Assembly: GCA_021797555.1 (NCBI GenBank)
Contig: JAJZZM010000001.1
Span: forward strand, 166,874-230,873
Length of the DNA stretch: 64,000 bases
Origin: Thermoplasmata archaeon
GTDB lineage: Archaea; Thermoplasmatota; Thermoplasmata; Thermoplasmatales; Thermoplasmataceae
Direction of reading: 5' to 3'
Notes under the pieces: model-generated
What the model was told of the DNA's origin: nothing
The model's database searches: none
What the model saw: only the letters and a program-made list of their open reading frames with translations
In this document: piece after piece, positions 6,152-32,129 of the stretch
Layout of the letters: each line of letters begins with the position of its first letter
How positions within the stretch are numbered: the stretch's first letter is position 1
Made by a program: the position numbers and the translations under genes

Positions 6152-6234
6152 TTATTTTTTTGTTTTTTCCTATAATTCCGATATGATATAACGATTATAA
6201 TAAAATTTATAATCTAATTTAATATGTATACTTG

Positions 6235-6867
6235 ATGCCGATATATGAAAATGACGAACACGAATATTTAAATGCGAAAGTAAAGAAGCTTGAAAATAAC
6301 TCATTTGTAAATGGTGTTTTATTCCTTACAGAGAAAAGGATAATTTTTGAAAAAAATGGTAAAAGAACCCTTATAAGGGCCTCTCCAGCAGTAACAGAAG
6401 TTAATGTTTATTTATATAATGTTGAAAATTCAACATTTGCGATGCCTAAATTTCCATTATTCACAAAAAAAATATTCAGTTTTGAGTATTATGATGATAA
6501 TAATAAGTTACAGAGAATTGATTTTGCAATGAAGGATCCCAAAACATGGGTAACCCAGATTACCAGATTGGCTTCTCTGGCAAAGAAGGAGGAAGCCACC
6601 AAAAATGAAAAAGAGAAAATAGAGGAAAAAAGAAGAGAAATTGAAATGGCAAAGGCAAGGGCACCTAAGGCAAACATAGGCATGGCAATCTTTGGTGATA
6701 ATAAAAACAAAAACAAAAATCCATATGATAATTTAAAGGAGAATATAATAGATGATAATACTAACGGGAATTTCCCTGCAAAAAATACCTTTAACTGCCC
6801 TAACTGTGGTTTTGAGGTTGATAACACCATGATGTACTGCCCTAACTGTGGATATAAATTAAAATAG
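6235..6867 (+). CDS. PH/GRAM-like domain protein with C-terminal zinc ribbon
   Basis: I chose the ATG at 6235; a TTG directly before it (6232) is the other option. Residues about 1-125 form a beta-rich domain with the pattern of bacterial/archaeal PH or GRAM-like domains (NGVLFLTEKRIIFEKNGKRTLI). A charged, probably helical linker (EEATKNEKEKIEEKRREIEMAKAR) follows. The last 22 residues are a zinc ribbon with two knuckles, CPNCGFEV and CPNCGYKL. Such proteins are common, uncharacterised archaeal cytosolic proteins. Its stop codon abuts the stop of the convergent gene with no spacer (6867/6868). Function unknown. Confidence 0.75.
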   Translation: MPIYENDEHEYLNAKVKKLENNSFVNGVLFLTEKRIIFEKNGKRTLIRASPAVTEVNVYLYNVENSTFAMPKFPLFTKKIFSFEYYDDNNKLQRIDFAMKDPKTWVTQITRLASLAKKEEATKNEKEKIEEKRREIEMAKARAPKANIGMAIFGDNKNKNKNPYDNLKENIIDDNTNGNFPAKNTFNCPNCGFEVDNTMMYCPNCGYKLK

Positions 6868-7749
6868 TTATTTCTCAATTAGCTCATTAATGCTTTTATT
6901 AACTTTATTCCATAGATAACTTTTCTTTTCAAGATATTTTATTTCCTTTTCTGTGAATTTTAATTTTGGAATTTTTTCCGGTATGTTATATATTTCATAA
7001 TCCTTCAGTATTAATGATTCTATTATGCTTTCTACAACAATGATATAATTATTTTTACCGTATCTATATGGCCTATTTTTTGATGCTTTGCTTAATAAAT
7101 ACGCGAGTATAATTGAAAAATATGAAGCATGTTTCAAAATAAAAGCGTCATTTAAACCATAATTGCATGATATTATTGCGTCACGCTCGTTAATAATATT
7201 ATTAATAAATGTTTTTTTATTCTGCCTATAATTTAAGATACCGTAGATATCTGCCGGGTAAGCCACAAAACCTGACATACGCGATAACCTTACAAATAAA
7301 TCAATGTCTTCATATTCCCGGAGGTTCCTCCAGCCACCGGACCTTTTTAATAAATCACGGTTTATTATTAAAACGGTATAGAGAAAAGCCTTTTTTTCTC
7401 CTTTTTTTATAAAATTATATATTATGTCGGATATGGAAATATTATATGAAATATTAGGATCAAAAACCACAATATAATCGCCGGTGCTTTTTAAATATGC
7501 TATTTGCTTGCCTGCACCATAACTTTTAAAATTATCGTAAATAAATTTAACATTGTTTTTATTTAAATCTATTTTAAAATTTGCTGATATTATTATTTCA
7601 TAGTCTATGCCTATCTCCTCTGCTATATTTATAATATTGTCTATATTATGGTTTAGATTCTCTTGATTTTCCATGAGAGTAGCGCAGAATGATATTTTTA
7701 GCTTATTTTCGGTATATAAACTTACATTTTTTATATTATACAGCTCCAT
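6868..7749 (-). CDS. Family 2-like glycosyltransferase with altered DxD
   Basis: The ATG at 7749 is preferred to a TTG two codons upstream. The 293-residue product has a GT-A fold outline: NKLKISFCATLMENQENL at the start, then GAGKQIAYLKSTGDYIVVFDPN, where family 2 enzymes usually have DADxx, and GGWRNLREYEDIDLFVRLSR, the usual ED acceptor-site region. There is no long membrane segment after it. The change of the DxD to FDPN means metal-dependent catalysis is uncertain. It lies near the GtrA-like protein (5354-6151), so both may belong to cell-surface glycan assembly. Target sugar unknown. Confidence 0.65.
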   Translation of the reverse strand: MELYNIKNVSLYTENKLKISFCATLMENQENLNHNIDNIINIAEEIGIDYEIIISANFKIDLNKNNVKFIYDNFKSYGAGKQIAYLKSTGDYIVVFDPNISYNISISDIIYNFIKKGEKKAFLYTVLIINRDLLKRSGGWRNLREYEDIDLFVRLSRMSGFVAYPADIYGILNYRQNKKTFINNIINERDAIISCNYGLNDAFILKHASYFSIILAYLLSKASKNRPYRYGKNNYIIVVESIIESLILKDYEIYNIPEKIPKLKFTEKEIKYLEKKSYLWNKVNKSINELIEK

Positions 7750-7887
7750 ATACAATAATGTAATATTTTTATTGAATTAAAGCTTATTGATTTTATTCTA
7801 TATAATTTATTACTAAAATTCTTTTAAAAATTAAATTTTTTTATTGTTAAACATCAGAAATTTTACAGTATGAATAATGTAAATAAC

Positions 7888-7896
7888 TTTATATAA
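7888..7896 (+). promoter_or_regulatory. TATA box for the 137-aa/Vps4-like gene pair
   Basis: TTTATATAA is centred 33 nt before the ATG at 7925, the right distance for archaeal TBP to place the start of transcription a few nt before the start codon. The ATG at 7910 hits a stop after four codons, so it is not the gene start. Confidence 0.5.
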
Positions 7897-7924
7897 ATCA
7901 ATTCTATAAATGATTGAATTGTAG

Positions 7925-8338
7925 ATGACCCTGATAGTTATAGGCATATTGCACCATTATAATTCTGATATAAAGGATAAACGTGCATCAGAGAATTATA
8001 TAAACATCTCAAAAAAAATATTGCAAATGTATAGCATGCATACCGGTTGCATAGTGTCCGGAAAAATATCTGAAATAAACCCTGCGGTTGATAGCGATAA
8101 GCTGACAGAAGTTGCAATGCCGGATTTGAATATTATGAATGGATTAAAGGTAAACCTTATTTATTTTGAGGGGGAGGGTGAAAAGGATTATCTGTTTCTC
8201 TCAAAAATTTTGTGGTCCAAACTTGTTGGCTTCGCAATATTTCCAGAGGAATACGAATTAAAAATTGAATTAAACCTTGTTGCCTGTGGATGGAAAAAAG
8301 TAAAACTGTTCAGCAAAGGAACTGTAATAGATAAGTAG
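7925..8338 (+). CDS. Uncharacterised 137-aa protein, upstream partner of Vps4-like ATPase
   Basis: I do not recognise the family. The protein begins MTLIVIGILHHYNSD, has a central mixed helix/strand region (NIMNGLKVNLIYFEGEGEKDYLFLSKILW) and ends with a strand-rich tail (LNLVACGWKKVKLFSKGTVIDK). No signal peptide or long membrane helix; one mildly hydrophobic N-terminus. It stops 8 nt before the AAA ATPase gene and is read from the same promoter, so it is probably translated together with that ATPase and may be a cofactor or cargo of the ESCRT-like system. Codon use matches the neighbours. Confidence 0.7.
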   Translation: MTLIVIGILHHYNSDIKDKRASENYINISKKILQMYSMHTGCIVSGKISEINPAVDSDKLTEVAMPDLNIMNGLKVNLIYFEGEGEKDYLFLSKILWSKLVGFAIFPEEYELKIELNLVACGWKKVKLFSKGTVIDK

Positions 8339-8346
8339 GTATTAAT

Positions 8347-9444
8347 ATGGATGACCAGAAAATAAATGAAATAAATAATTTACTTGAAAACGCAATAAAA
8401 AATGAATCGGAGGGCAAAAGAAAGGAGGCTTCAGATTTATATATGCTTACGTATAAAAAATTAATTGAACTTGCTAAAAATTCACATGGAAAATTAAAAA
8501 ATGAAAGATTAAACCAGGCAGATATCATATTAAAAACATATAAATCATTAAACGGTGATAATAATGATGGTGATAAAATTTCTCAGGGAAAAAAAATTCT
8601 TGAAACATTAAATATTGAAGAGCCGGAAATACCCAAAGTTACATTTAATGATGTTGCAGGCCTTGAAAATGTTAAAAATGAGATAATGTCAAAAATAATA
8701 TATCCAATGAGGTATAAGGAATTATCAAAAGAATATAATATAGAATTTGGTGGCGGAATGCTTTTATACGGTCCCCCTGGAACAGGGAAAACATTTATTG
8801 TCAAGGCAATAGCCAATGAAGTAAAAGCCAACTTTATAAATGTAAATCCCTCTTCTTTGTATAGCCAGTGGTTTGGCCAGTTTGAAAAGAACATTTCATT
8901 ATTATTTAAAGCTGCATATTTATTATCGCCATCAATAATATTTTTTGATGAAATTGATACTTTAGTTCCTAAAAGGTCCGGGTCGGAATCGGATGCGGCC
9001 AAAAGGGGTGTATCACAGCTATTAACTGAGGTTGGAGGCTTAACCTCAGAGAAGGATAAAAATATATTCATTATAGCCGCAACAAATAATCCGTGGGAAG
9101 TTGATGAGGCAGTAATGAGGCCTGGAAGATTTGATGTTAAAATATATGTTCCACCACCTGATTATGAATCCAGGAAAAAATTATTTGAATTGAAATTATC
9201 AAAAATAAAACATGTAGACAATATAGATTACGATAAACTTTCAAGAACCACAGAAAGGTATTCAGGTGCAGATATAGAATTTATATGCAAAAAAGCAGTC
9301 CAGAATGTTTTTATGGAGGTTGTAAAATCAGGGACTAAAAGGGATATAACCACGGATGACATAATAAATGTTATTTCACAGATAAAGCCATCAATAGACG
9401 AGGCAATGCTGAGGAGGTATCAGAGCTATATTATGGATATGTGA
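8347..9444 (+). CDS. Vps4/CdvC-like AAA ATPase with N-terminal MIT-like domain
   Basis: A 365-residue AAA ATPase of the Vps4/katanin/spastin clade. Residues about 1-70 form an MIT-like three-helix bundle (INNLLENAIKNESEGKRKEA...), which in Vps4 binds ESCRT-III tails. Walker A GPPGTGKT is at 142-149, Walker B IIFFDE at 197-202, and sensor ATNN at 245-248. The first pore loop SSLYSQWFGQFEKN has the aromatic W175-F176 pair used to thread substrate. The final helix KPSIDEAMLRRYQSYI resembles the C-terminal helix of Vps4/katanin. Proteasome-type and Cdc48 features (double ring, coiled coil) are absent. The next gene downstream encodes an ESCRT-III-like protein, supporting a role in remodelling ESCRT-III filaments. 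Confidence 0.85.
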   Translation: MDDQKINEINNLLENAIKNESEGKRKEASDLYMLTYKKLIELAKNSHGKLKNERLNQADIILKTYKSLNGDNNDGDKISQGKKILETLNIEEPEIPKVTFNDVAGLENVKNEIMSKIIYPMRYKELSKEYNIEFGGGMLLYGPPGTGKTFIVKAIANEVKANFINVNPSSLYSQWFGQFEKNISLLFKAAYLLSPSIIFFDEIDTLVPKRSGSESDAAKRGVSQLLTEVGGLTSEKDKNIFIIAATNNPWEVDEAVMRPGRFDVKIYVPPPDYESRKKLFELKLSKIKHVDNIDYDKLSRTTERYSGADIEFICKKAVQNVFMEVVKSGTKRDITTDDIINVISQIKPSIDEAMLRRYQSYIMDM

Positions 9445-9824: not shown

Positions 9825-10442
9825 ATGCCTATGGCAGTTTTCAAATTCGGCAAAAGTGAAGATGAAAAGATTCTTGAAAAAAGATCAAGAATAAGCATGG
9901 ATAAATCAAATATTGATAGAACTATAAGGCAATATGAAAGATTAAAACTTAAAAGTATCGAAGATGCAAAACTTGCACTAAATGATAAAAATATGAGAAA
10001 AGCCAGATTATTTGCATCGTTTATAGCCTCGCTTGAATCTTCAATAAATGGATTAAAGGACTATAAGCTATTGCTTGAAAGTGTTGATTTAAATTTACAG
10101 TATTCAAAAACGCAGAAAGATATATGGTCTGGATTAAAACAGAGTTCACAGGACCTTGTCGGCAATCAGCTGAGTGAAAAACAGATAGCAGAAATATCAC
10201 AGAGCATAGATTCTATAGTTGATGCACAGGAAAGAATACAGGATACTTTAGGAGATCAATTAGATTCAATAAAGGATGCAGTGGATCGCAGTTCAGAGAT
10301 AAATGAAACATCAAGGGACAAAGTTTTAAAAGAATTAGAAGAAGAAAAAGAGGATAATAAAACCACAGAAATATCGGATGAGGACAAACGCCTTAATGAA
10401 TTAATAAAAGAGATAAATAAGGAAAAGGAAGGAGAAAAATAA
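9825..10442 (+). CDS. Snf7/CdvB-like (ESCRT-III-type) coiled-coil protein
   Basis: A 205-residue, almost wholly helical protein with a basic N-terminal half and acidic C-terminal half, the charge split of ESCRT-III subunits. Residues about 25-105 form a long helical hairpin (IRQYERLKLKSIEDAKLAL, then RKARLFASFIASLESSIN) like the Snf7 core. The C-terminal DEDKRLNELIK (185-195) resembles part of the MIM1 motif (R-L-x-x-L) that binds MIT domains, though the usual upstream Leu is missing. It lies 380 nt after the MIT-bearing AAA ATPase. A TATA box at 9803-9811 is 18 nt before the first ATG but 24 before the second (9831), so translation may start at 9831. ESCRT-III assignment is inferred from pattern, not from a search. 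Confidence 0.65.
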   Translation: MPMAVFKFGKSEDEKILEKRSRISMDKSNIDRTIRQYERLKLKSIEDAKLALNDKNMRKARLFASFIASLESSINGLKDYKLLLESVDLNLQYSKTQKDIWSGLKQSSQDLVGNQLSEKQIAEISQSIDSIVDAQERIQDTLGDQLDSIKDAVDRSSEINETSRDKVLKELEEEKEDNKTTEISDEDKRLNELIKEINKEKEGEK

Positions 10443-29850: not shown

Positions 29851-31704
29851 ATGAATAAATTTATTCCAAGGGAATGGCAGGAAAGTTTAATAACAACGGT
29901 ATCAAAAAACCTTGAGGAAAGGAATACAATAGCCCTAGAAGCTCCTACCGGATCCGGAAAAACCTCATTTATATTATATCTATCATTTTTAACGGATAAA
30001 AAAATAATATATTTAACAAGGACACATAATGAATTTACAAGAATTTATGAGGACAATGAAAAATATTTTAATTTACCCATAATATATTTATTTGGCAAAA
30101 ACAATTTATGCCCCTTAAAGGAACGCTGGTATGATGATGAAGAACAGAAAAATGTATGCAAGGGATGCATATTAAAGGATAGAATAATAAAAATGGATTT
30201 ATTAAAAACCGGTTCACCGGAGGAGTTTATAAATTATGTTATTGATGATTCCCTGGAAAAAATAAGGAAGGATATAAACAGTAATAACATGGCAAGGGAC
30301 ACAAAGGGCAATTTAACTGCACTGAAAAAGGATAGAATGGAATCATATTGCCCGTATTATTCCGTAAGGGAAAATATGAAAAATGCTAAAATAATAATGA
30401 TGACATATAACTATTTACTGAATCCATCAATAAGATATAATGTGTTTTATAATAATGATGAGGAAAAGATTGACTTAAACGATTATTATATAATTTTTGA
30501 TGAGGCACATAACCTGGATTCTGTAATAGAAAACTTTGGAAGATCCTTAACAAACAAATCAATTTTAAGGGCAATAGATTTGCTTGTAAAAGAATTTCCA
30601 TTAAATAAATATAAATGTCATGAACGTGTTGAATCCAATTTAATTTTGGAAGATCTATTAAATAATTTCAGTTCAACAAGGGGAACTGACAATTTAAAAT
30701 TGTTTAAGTTCTCAAATGACTTTTTATTTAGAATAAAAGATTTGGAATCATTAAAGAAGATTTCGGACGAATTTGATAAAATGAATGATGAAAGGCCATT
30801 AAAAGATAGAGGCAAAAATTATATAGAAACTGTATATAATTTTCTATATGATTACCAGAGAATGGAAAATGGAGGATTATATTCATCAACAAATTTCAAT
30901 GGAAAAGAACTAAGGCTAAAAATAATGTATTATAACACATCGGAATATTTCTCATTTTTAAAGGGTAGGCCGGTTATTTTCATGTCCGGTACACTGCCTT
31001 CAGAGGAACATATATCAAAGGTCTGGAATCTGGACAATGTTTTTTATATAAATATAAATGATATTTTCAAGAATACCGGCGGCCTAAAAAAATATAGAAT
31101 TGTAGATGGATATACAACACTTGGGAAATACAGGAACAATATAGAAGAGTGGTCAAACATGCTTAAGAAATACATGGATTTTATCATGAATATATACAGT
31201 GAATCTGAAAAAAGTGTCATTGTGGCCGTTCCGTCATATAAGATAATGTTTGGTGATGCTGATAAAAATATACCCGGCATGGCAACATATTTGCCGGATG
31301 ACATGAGAAAAAACGTATTTTTTGAAAATAAAAAGATATCGTTTAGTTATCTTGAAAAGAAAGCCCTTGAATCAAAAATAATCATATTTTCAGTACATGG
31401 TGGAAAACTTCTGGAAGGGATGCAGTTAATAAAAAACAGCAAAAGCTTACTCAGTGATGTTGTCATAGCCGGCTTACCTTTAATACCGCTAGATGATTAT
31501 AGAAAAAATAAAATAAACTATTTGGAAAAAACACTTGGCAGAAGTTCATACAATGTCCTATACTATGAATATGCATTAATAAAGGTAAAGCAGGCCGCAG
31601 GACGATCGACAAGATCTCCGGATGATAATGCAAATATATGGCTATGTGATGACAGATTTGATTCATATTACTGGAAAAAGAATTTGCTGAACAGTGAACT
31701 ATAA
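29851..31704 (+). CDS. xpd: XPD/Rad3-family Fe-S DNA helicase
   Basis: A 617-residue superfamily 2 5'-3' helicase. Walker A APTGSGKTSF is at 31-40. The iron-sulphur domain cysteines are Cys87, Cys103, Cys106 and Cys167 (CPLKERW, CKGC, YCPYY). The DEAH box IIFDEAHNLD is near 216-225. Motif IV-VI stretches are present, including FSVHGGKLLEGM and QAAGRSTRSPDD. Archaeal XPD is of this size and works in repair and helix unwinding. Isolated gene; ATG at 29851. Confidence 0.94.
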   Translation: MNKFIPREWQESLITTVSKNLEERNTIALEAPTGSGKTSFILYLSFLTDKKIIYLTRTHNEFTRIYEDNEKYFNLPIIYLFGKNNLCPLKERWYDDEEQKNVCKGCILKDRIIKMDLLKTGSPEEFINYVIDDSLEKIRKDINSNNMARDTKGNLTALKKDRMESYCPYYSVRENMKNAKIIMMTYNYLLNPSIRYNVFYNNDEEKIDLNDYYIIFDEAHNLDSVIENFGRSLTNKSILRAIDLLVKEFPLNKYKCHERVESNLILEDLLNNFSSTRGTDNLKLFKFSNDFLFRIKDLESLKKISDEFDKMNDERPLKDRGKNYIETVYNFLYDYQRMENGGLYSSTNFNGKELRLKIMYYNTSEYFSFLKGRPVIFMSGTLPSEEHISKVWNLDNVFYININDIFKNTGGLKKYRIVDGYTTLGKYRNNIEEWSNMLKKYMDFIMNIYSESEKSVIVAVPSYKIMFGDADKNIPGMATYLPDDMRKNVFFENKKISFSYLEKKALESKIIIFSVHGGKLLEGMQLIKNSKSLLSDVVIAGLPLIPLDDYRKNKINYLEKTLGRSSYNVLYYEYALIKVKQAAGRSTRSPDDNANIWLCDDRFDSYYWKKNLLNSEL

Positions 31705-31736: not shown

Positions 31737-32129
31737 ATGCCAATAATAATAGAATCAACAGTAAAATCTGAAAAATTTTTGAGGCCTTTAAATGGGAACT
31801 CTTCAAATATGCATCTATCTGTAAATTCCAGATATCTGGCAGATAGATATAACATAAAAAATGAAGGTGAAATAAATGCAAAAATATTATCAGTTTATGG
31901 CATTAAGGATTACCTAAATACCGATGATTTAAAGGACTTTGAAAATATGGATATAAAAATGTATATATTGCCTGCAGGCTGTGGCCCTAATGATGGATTA
32001 TTTTTTGATAATACCATGATAAAAGTATTTGATAAACACTCCATAATTCCTGATAAATATATATTTAAAATAGCAATAGATAAGATAGGCAATAATAAAA
32101 TTATTGATGATATAGATATAAAAGAATAA
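31737..32129 (+). CDS. Uncharacterised 130-aa protein
   Basis: Not recognised. A cytosolic protein with a beta-rich C-terminal part: MYILPAGCGPNDGLFFDNTM then MIKVFDKHSIIPDKYIFKIA. The first 60 residues resemble a short adaptor-like region with LRPLNGNSSNMHLSVNSRYLADRY. One cysteine. It follows xpd by 32 nt and may be co-transcribed, but a TATA-like run also lies between. Confidence 0.6.
   Translation: MPIIIESTVKSEKFLRPLNGNSSNMHLSVNSRYLADRYNIKNEGEINAKILSVYGIKDYLNTDDLKDFENMDIKMYILPAGCGPNDGLFFDNTMIKVFDKHSIIPDKYIFKIAIDKIGNNKIIDDIDIKE

Follow-up and report, generated by a model that had tools for sequence, protein, structure and literature searches.

Gene organization at the X locus

The window (the whole 64,000-nucleotide stretch of Thermoplasmata archaeon DNA that was analysed) carries three genes in a row on its forward strand, encoding a 137-aa predicted β-barrel protein that we call X (7925–8338), a Vps4/CdvC-type AAA ATPase of 365 aa (8347–9444; Pfam AAA, 4e-41) and an ESCRT-III (CdvB/Snf7) protein of 205 aa (9825–10442; Pfam Snf7, 7e-8, over cut-off). 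The X reading frame runs from an ATG start to a TAG stop at 8336–8338, and its extent, its length and its position next to a Vps4-like AAA gene are exactly as a first-pass annotation of this DNA had them, with the ATPase gene starting 8 nt past the stop codon after a gap at 8339–8346. A TATA-like box for the pair (TATATAAA, 7890–7897, forward strand), recognized by eye rather than by a promoter scan, lies ~31 nt 5′ of the X start codon, and a second promoter hardly fits inside the 8-nt gap; X and the Vps4 ATPase are probably carried on one mRNA, and translational linkage of the two is plausible. The first-pass annotation had seen the link to Vps4 and mentioned neither the ESCRT-III gene nor a distant X paralogue of 130 aa, X2, encoded on the same strand at 31737–32129 and identified by its match to the X profile.

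X has no visible known motif, as had been stated, and searches of Pfam and NCBIfam assigned the window protein to no family. The best Pfam row, Pas_Saposin (E 0.04), falls under the cut-off and was taken as chance, as were Rho_RNA_bind (0.043, in two of the 19 members of the X alignment) and NCBIfam rows seen in one member each, among them T4SS_effec_BID (0.017) and ftsA (0.039). PHROGs gave no family for X, a PDB sequence search returned zero rows, and two scans of viral contigs, each with one protein as query, turned up no relative. A clear match to an unrelated housekeeping family, the outcome that would have spoken against a partner of Vps4, did not occur. This absence of database families is all that favours reading the frame as a chance ORF. 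Against it, dN/dS for X is 0.09 and 0.10 between the window gene and two relatives (CdvC, 0.05 and 0.05), ratios that are rough because dS is ~1 in both comparisons, and between those two relatives, which are mutually closer, it is 0.18 (CdvC, 0.04); the start, length and gene order of X are also kept across 24 genomes. X is under purifying selection, and the chance-ORF reading, whose probability we put close to nil, is already refuted.

Most other neighbours vary. The gene at 6232–6867 (forward strand) encodes a protein in which a GRAM/PH-like region (GRAM E 0.049, under its cut-off) is combined with a zinc ribbon at the C-terminus (over its cut-off), and a neighbour of this type occurs in the loci of G000, G023, G025, G001 and G056 among the 28 loci examined. 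In genomes G043 and G033 a bacterial PH-like protein is encoded directly after CdvC (L082:9806–10162 and L084:10064–10402), with a Pfam score just above the cut-off in the former and below it in the latter. The PH/GRAM-like proteins near the module are possible membrane-binding partners. A membrane-type protein of ~100 aa with a very weak resemblance to CvpA is present in the loci of all 11 X genomes of genera g2, g12, g14 and g15 (L093:7243–7548, L091:82–387, L080:10367–10675 and eight more loci) and absent from the loci examined of g1, G010, G043 and G033. We take g15 to be Thermoplasma, g13 to be Picrophilus and part of g1, the window's genus, to be Ferroplasma. The opposite-strand gene at 6868–7755 has no Pfam match and looks glycosyltransferase-like by eye; relatives of it adjoin X in Acidiplasma aeolicum as well as in genomes of the window's genus.

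The Vps4 and ESCRT-III partners

Against NCBIfam the AAA protein scored E 6e-69 with Cdc48 and 1e-67 with CdvC, both under the curated cut-offs. No row for an N-terminal MIT domain appeared among the best 25 of 43 Pfam families, and residues 1–75 look MIT-like by eye. The ESCRT-III protein of the window has a MIM1-like motif near its C-terminus ([DE]xxLxxLLxxL type), which is present in 15 of the 24 ESCRT-III proteins of the module; in a shuffling control the pattern was found in 13/21 sequences against a shuffled mean of 0.01, an optimistic figure, as the pattern was defined after the sequences had been viewed. A MIM1 motif, if real, would be expected to bind a Vps4 MIT domain. The motif, again if real, would qualify a report whose relevant passages describe euryarchaeal Cdv proteins as being without interaction domains (PMC8970359).

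A single-query search with the window ESCRT-III protein recovered relatives in 18 of the 24 genomes that encode X. The other six, all of the window's genus, have instead a conserved gene for a protein of 203–231 aa near the CdvC end (L076:5394–6086, L077:6035–6730, L078:9054–9716, L094:9114–9782, L095:10674–11285 and L103:5330–6022), ~1 kb from CdvC in G020 and G021. Pfam gave no match for the five of these six proteins that were scanned. Aligned with the ESCRT-III profile, the gene product reached an hhalign probability of 94.7% (E 6e-8, 196 columns), where four control families, none of them coiled-coil, all stayed at 0.2% or less, and an ESCRT-III HMM built without the six matched them at 2.6e-6 to 3e-9 in hmmsearch. 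We regard these as diverged ESCRT-III proteins of Ferroplasma-type genomes, in agreement with the minimal ESCRT system stated for Ferroplasma (PMC10936438), whose authors probably knew of them.

The system described there for Thermoplasmata consists of Vps4, ESCRT-III and a β-barrel protein, arCOG07400, with no CdvA listed (Makarova et al. 2024, PMC10936438). X shares with it the lineage, the three-gene module with Vps4 and ESCRT-III and, as predicted from the model described below, the β barrel; X is almost certainly arCOG07400, which was uncharacterised in function in 2024 (PMC10936438). The association of X with ESCRT is thus not new, having been in print since that year. A full-text literature search for arCOG07400 returned PMC10936438 only, and a search for Ta1175 returned no mention. 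Listings of the literature on Ferroplasma and Picrophilus division and on Thermoplasmata ESCRT-III/Vps4 show no functional study of the X family in their titles and abstract openings, and the passages on division and ESCRT in PMC7285479 and PMC5473848 hold nothing on it.

X in the genomes searched: one family, always beside Vps4

Among 77 genomes of the window's family, a single-sequence search found X in 25, one of which (G070) was spurious, the match being weak and inside a seemingly unrelated 299-aa frame, and was dropped; a 19-row profile found X in 24. A class-wide draw of 400 genomes gave 20 with X, all from the window's family, and a peptide-pattern scan reaching beyond the class gave six public loci, encoding proteins 60–87% identical to X, all from Thermoplasmata or Acidiplasma. 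Co-occurrence with the AAA gene in other genomes, proposed in the first pass as a check, holds for X throughout: every one of the 24 genomes with X has it immediately upstream of CdvC in the same orientation. As longest ORFs, X and CdvC overlap by 4–38 nt in 14 of these genomes and are separated by 5–77 nt in nine. The remaining genome, G056, has a broken ATPase frame, and its X frame continues into the ATPase start (L025:1357–1920); this fusion-like arrangement was left uncounted, as the frames break near G-runs in a genome that is 50% complete and may reflect sequencing error. All 24 also carry an ESCRT-III gene no more than ~5 kb from CdvC.

The Vps4 linkage holds down to ~25% X identity while most other neighbours change from genome to genome, which argues against the notion that X is a small barrel that binds a ligand or nucleic acid or acts as an enzyme, with no more than a loose tie to ESCRT, and that it stands beside Vps4 by operon habit, a reading we consider distinctly unlikely. 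The distribution of X argues the same way. An ESCRT-III profile matched 41 of the 77 genomes, namely all 24 X genomes and 17 that lack X; this profile contains three of the six diverged proteins and is no independent test for those genomes. In 53 of the 77 family genomes, including these 17 with ESCRT-III, X gave no match, and so it is no general housekeeping gene. Vps4 can also do without X, since G041 encodes a Vps4 58% identical to that of the window together with ESCRT-III and gives no X match, in a genome that is 69% complete with the locus on one contig.

Predicted fold of X

A first, poor model of X (pLDDT 49.6) had pointed to an OB fold, an assignment dropped once a second model resolved an extra half. 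The second AlphaFold2 run, which differed from the first solely by the addition of the window X2 to an alignment of seven X sequences, gave a best of five models with pLDDT 81.5 and pTM 0.77, the other four having pLDDT 71.3, 56.6, 55.8 and 55.6. In the best model, strands are predicted at residues 3–8, 21–29, 43–53, 75–81, 87–93 and 110–121 and two short helices at 30–34 and 94–102, with two further short strands, giving the predicted order ββαβ-ββαβ along the chain. The beta-rich tail noted in the first pass therefore understated the case: predicted strands and the two short helices make up the whole of the protein.

Foldseek returned no structural match at E 0.001 or better. The best VIA-align row was PHS018 (PDB 2glw; Z 7.3, 3.0 Å over 89 residues, 14% identity), in a method that commonly gives a best Z of 7 to 8 even where no clear match exists. 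It was followed by PG0164 (6.5), riboflavin kinases (up to 5.8), the Upf1 barrel (5.4), membrane fusion proteins (about 5) and V/A-ATPase N-terminal barrels (about 4.5); FAD synthetases, phage tail-tube proteins and other barrels were also listed, and VAT-type and PRC-type chains were absent among the best 50 rows, an absence that carries no weight as evidence. The riboflavin kinases and V/A-ATPase N-terminal barrels presumably belong to one and the same RIFT group as the best match. X resembles the RIFT barrels in the order of its predicted elements, and its best-scoring structural row, PHS018, is treated as a RIFT protein in the portion of PMC11258233 concerned with it. X differs from the RIFT barrels in the low identity, in the lack of any sequence-level match and in a Z score below 8. 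No clear GD-box was seen by eye, and an internal two-fold repeat was not significant in a shuffle test, in which shuffles reached the observed score of half 1 against half 2 in 8/150 trials for X, 62/150 for X2 and 50/150 for both together. Our best guess from the model is that X folds as a RIFT-like six-stranded barrel.

The N-terminal domain of Cdc48/VAT is a comparable case, a small barrel that works with an AAA ATPase. There, however, the barrel is fused to the ATPase, whereas X is encoded by a separate gene, and the profiles do not match (hhalign 0.4%).

The structural neighbours also bear on a loose tie to ESCRT. Riboflavin kinases stand among the better matches, and reconstructed RIFT and related barrels are described as binding nucleic acids in the part of PMC11258233 that deals with them, both of which are compatible with a ligand-binding, nucleic-acid-binding or enzymatic role. 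Because several of the best neighbours (the riboflavin kinases and FAD synthetases) are enzymes, a non-catalytic X remains an assumption; for the same reason we slightly raised the probability given to a loosely tied barrel and lowered by as little that given to a Vps4-side adaptor or regulator, the reading we prefer.

X diverges with Vps4 more than with ESCRT-III

Pairwise distances were compared across 20 genomes, the 24 with X minus three near-copies and G056. X distances correlated with those of CdvC at r 0.77 (partial 0.81 given ESCRT-III) and with those of ESCRT-III at r 0.34 (partial 0.49 given CdvC), figures uncorrected for shared species history, which the X–CdvC correlation also reflects. 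The divergence of X follows Vps4 more than ESCRT-III. X evolves faster than the ATPase, with 36% identity to the Ferroplasma-type orthologues against 74% for Vps4.

These comparisons also inform the possibility that X fills the slot of CdvA, the Sulfolobus-type division protein, by binding the membrane or a membrane protein and recruiting ESCRT-III to the division site, so that its adjacency to Vps4 would be mere clustering. Like CdvA, X is a third component beside CdvB and CdvC and, by prediction, a small β barrel; CdvA itself starts with a small PRC barrel, and the published Thermoplasmata system is without CdvA (PMC10936438). The Ferroplasma-type genomes speak for this reading, as the divergence of X and of ESCRT-III jumps there and that of CdvC does not. 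In G024, however, ESCRT-III has diverged (34%) and X has not (69%), and overall X tracks CdvC better than ESCRT-III. The X model, moreover, has no coiled-coil after the barrel, its 137 aa being taken up by strands and the two short helices, and X showed no sequence similarity to seven PRC proteins (hhalign 0.27%), a mismatch in sequence that leaves a match in fold possible. We therefore judge a CdvA-like role unlikely, and return to X as a Vps4-side component below.

A paralogue in genera without FtsZ

In the window X2 lies directly 3′ of an XPD-like helicase gene (29851–31704). Profile–profile comparison relates it to X with 98% probability (E 2e-13, 117 columns); in a tree of 30 rows the nine from X2 group as one clade (100/100, with a warning from the tool about long branches), and a CGP motif is common to these nine aligned rows and missing from those of X. 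A PDB sequence search with X2 gave one row, ribosomal protein eL22 at E 0.61, and profile tests found no sequence homology to VAT N-domains or PRC barrels. Searched within the family, the X2 profile gave strong matches (E 1e-37 or better) in 14 of the 77 genomes, distributed as 10/10 in g1, 2/3 in g2 and 2/2 in g13, and every other row of that search fell on X; a weak match in G042 (E 0.009), which the profiles did not recover, was dropped. No locus seen has X2 immediately next to Vps4. X2 adjoins an XPD-type helicase gene in 10/14 X2 genomes, the window's and nine others, all of one genus.

FtsZ (E 1e-10) had no match in any of the 15 genomes of g1, g2 and g13 and matched in 61 of the 62 others, the sole exception being G074, which has no X2. 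X2 is accordingly present in 14/15 genomes of the three genera without FtsZ matches and in 0/62 of the rest of the family. SepF was without a match in the same 15 genomes and in five more of the 77, and PRC proteins had no match in 10/10 g1 genomes and matched in 31/31 others examined, all from outside g2 and g13. The agreement between X2 and FtsZ loss probably stems from one lineage rather than many independent events.

In the two Picrophilus-like genomes of g13, one of which (G055) is 59% complete, no ESCRT-III was found even by profile, and the search for Vps4 at E 1e-60 gave nothing except a Cdc48-type frame of 766 aa in G054. The fold family thus has at least one other job, given that X2 persists in two genomes lacking matches to Vps4 and ESCRT-III. 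This persistence and the helicase neighbour, in its single genus, are the observations from X2 that lend weight to a barrel loosely tied to ESCRT, as opposed to the constant Vps4 linkage and restricted distribution of X itself. A lone arCOG07400 member has been reported in Picrophilus torridus (PMC10936438), and our searches suggest that this Picrophilus candidate belongs to the X2 group and is not the ESCRT partner X. In our searches the relatives fall into two sets: X, which immediately precedes Vps4 in every case, and X2, the only one of the two present in the two Picrophilus-like genomes.

A more speculative proposal, to which we give a shade less credence than to the loosely tied barrel, is that X and X2 form a two-barrel system that replaced FtsZ–SepF–PRC-barrel division in Ferroplasma, Acidiplasma and Picrophilus, with X acting alongside Vps4/ESCRT-III in genomes that retain them, and X2, having arisen as FtsZ was lost, playing its own division or membrane role that survives in Picrophilus-like genomes even after the loss of Vps4 and ESCRT-III.

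A putative Vps4-side role for X

We favour, with somewhat better than even confidence, the reading that X, as a Vps4-side adaptor or regulator, completes the minimal ESCRT module of Thermoplasmatales-type archaea as its third component. The unbroken linkage of X to Vps4, the presence of ESCRT-III in every such locus, the tracking of CdvC by X and the barrel model all support it. In the putative mechanism, X would bind Vps4 directly and, itself presumably non-catalytic, would dock the ATPase onto ESCRT-III filaments at the membrane or set its activity there; the module so formed may drive division in the genera without FtsZ. The first-pass annotation had already suggested that X might adapt or regulate Vps4, and co-occurrence, gene order and the predicted small single-domain barrel fit that suggestion, while the binding and the regulation are what we infer.

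To the published system this analysis adds the probable barrel type, a tie of X that is closer with Vps4 than with ESCRT-III, and a paralogue confined, within the family, to genera without FtsZ. With one group locked to Vps4 and the other limited to the FtsZ-less genera, there are two specific genes to test, and both touch on the question of how euryarchaea without FtsZ divide.
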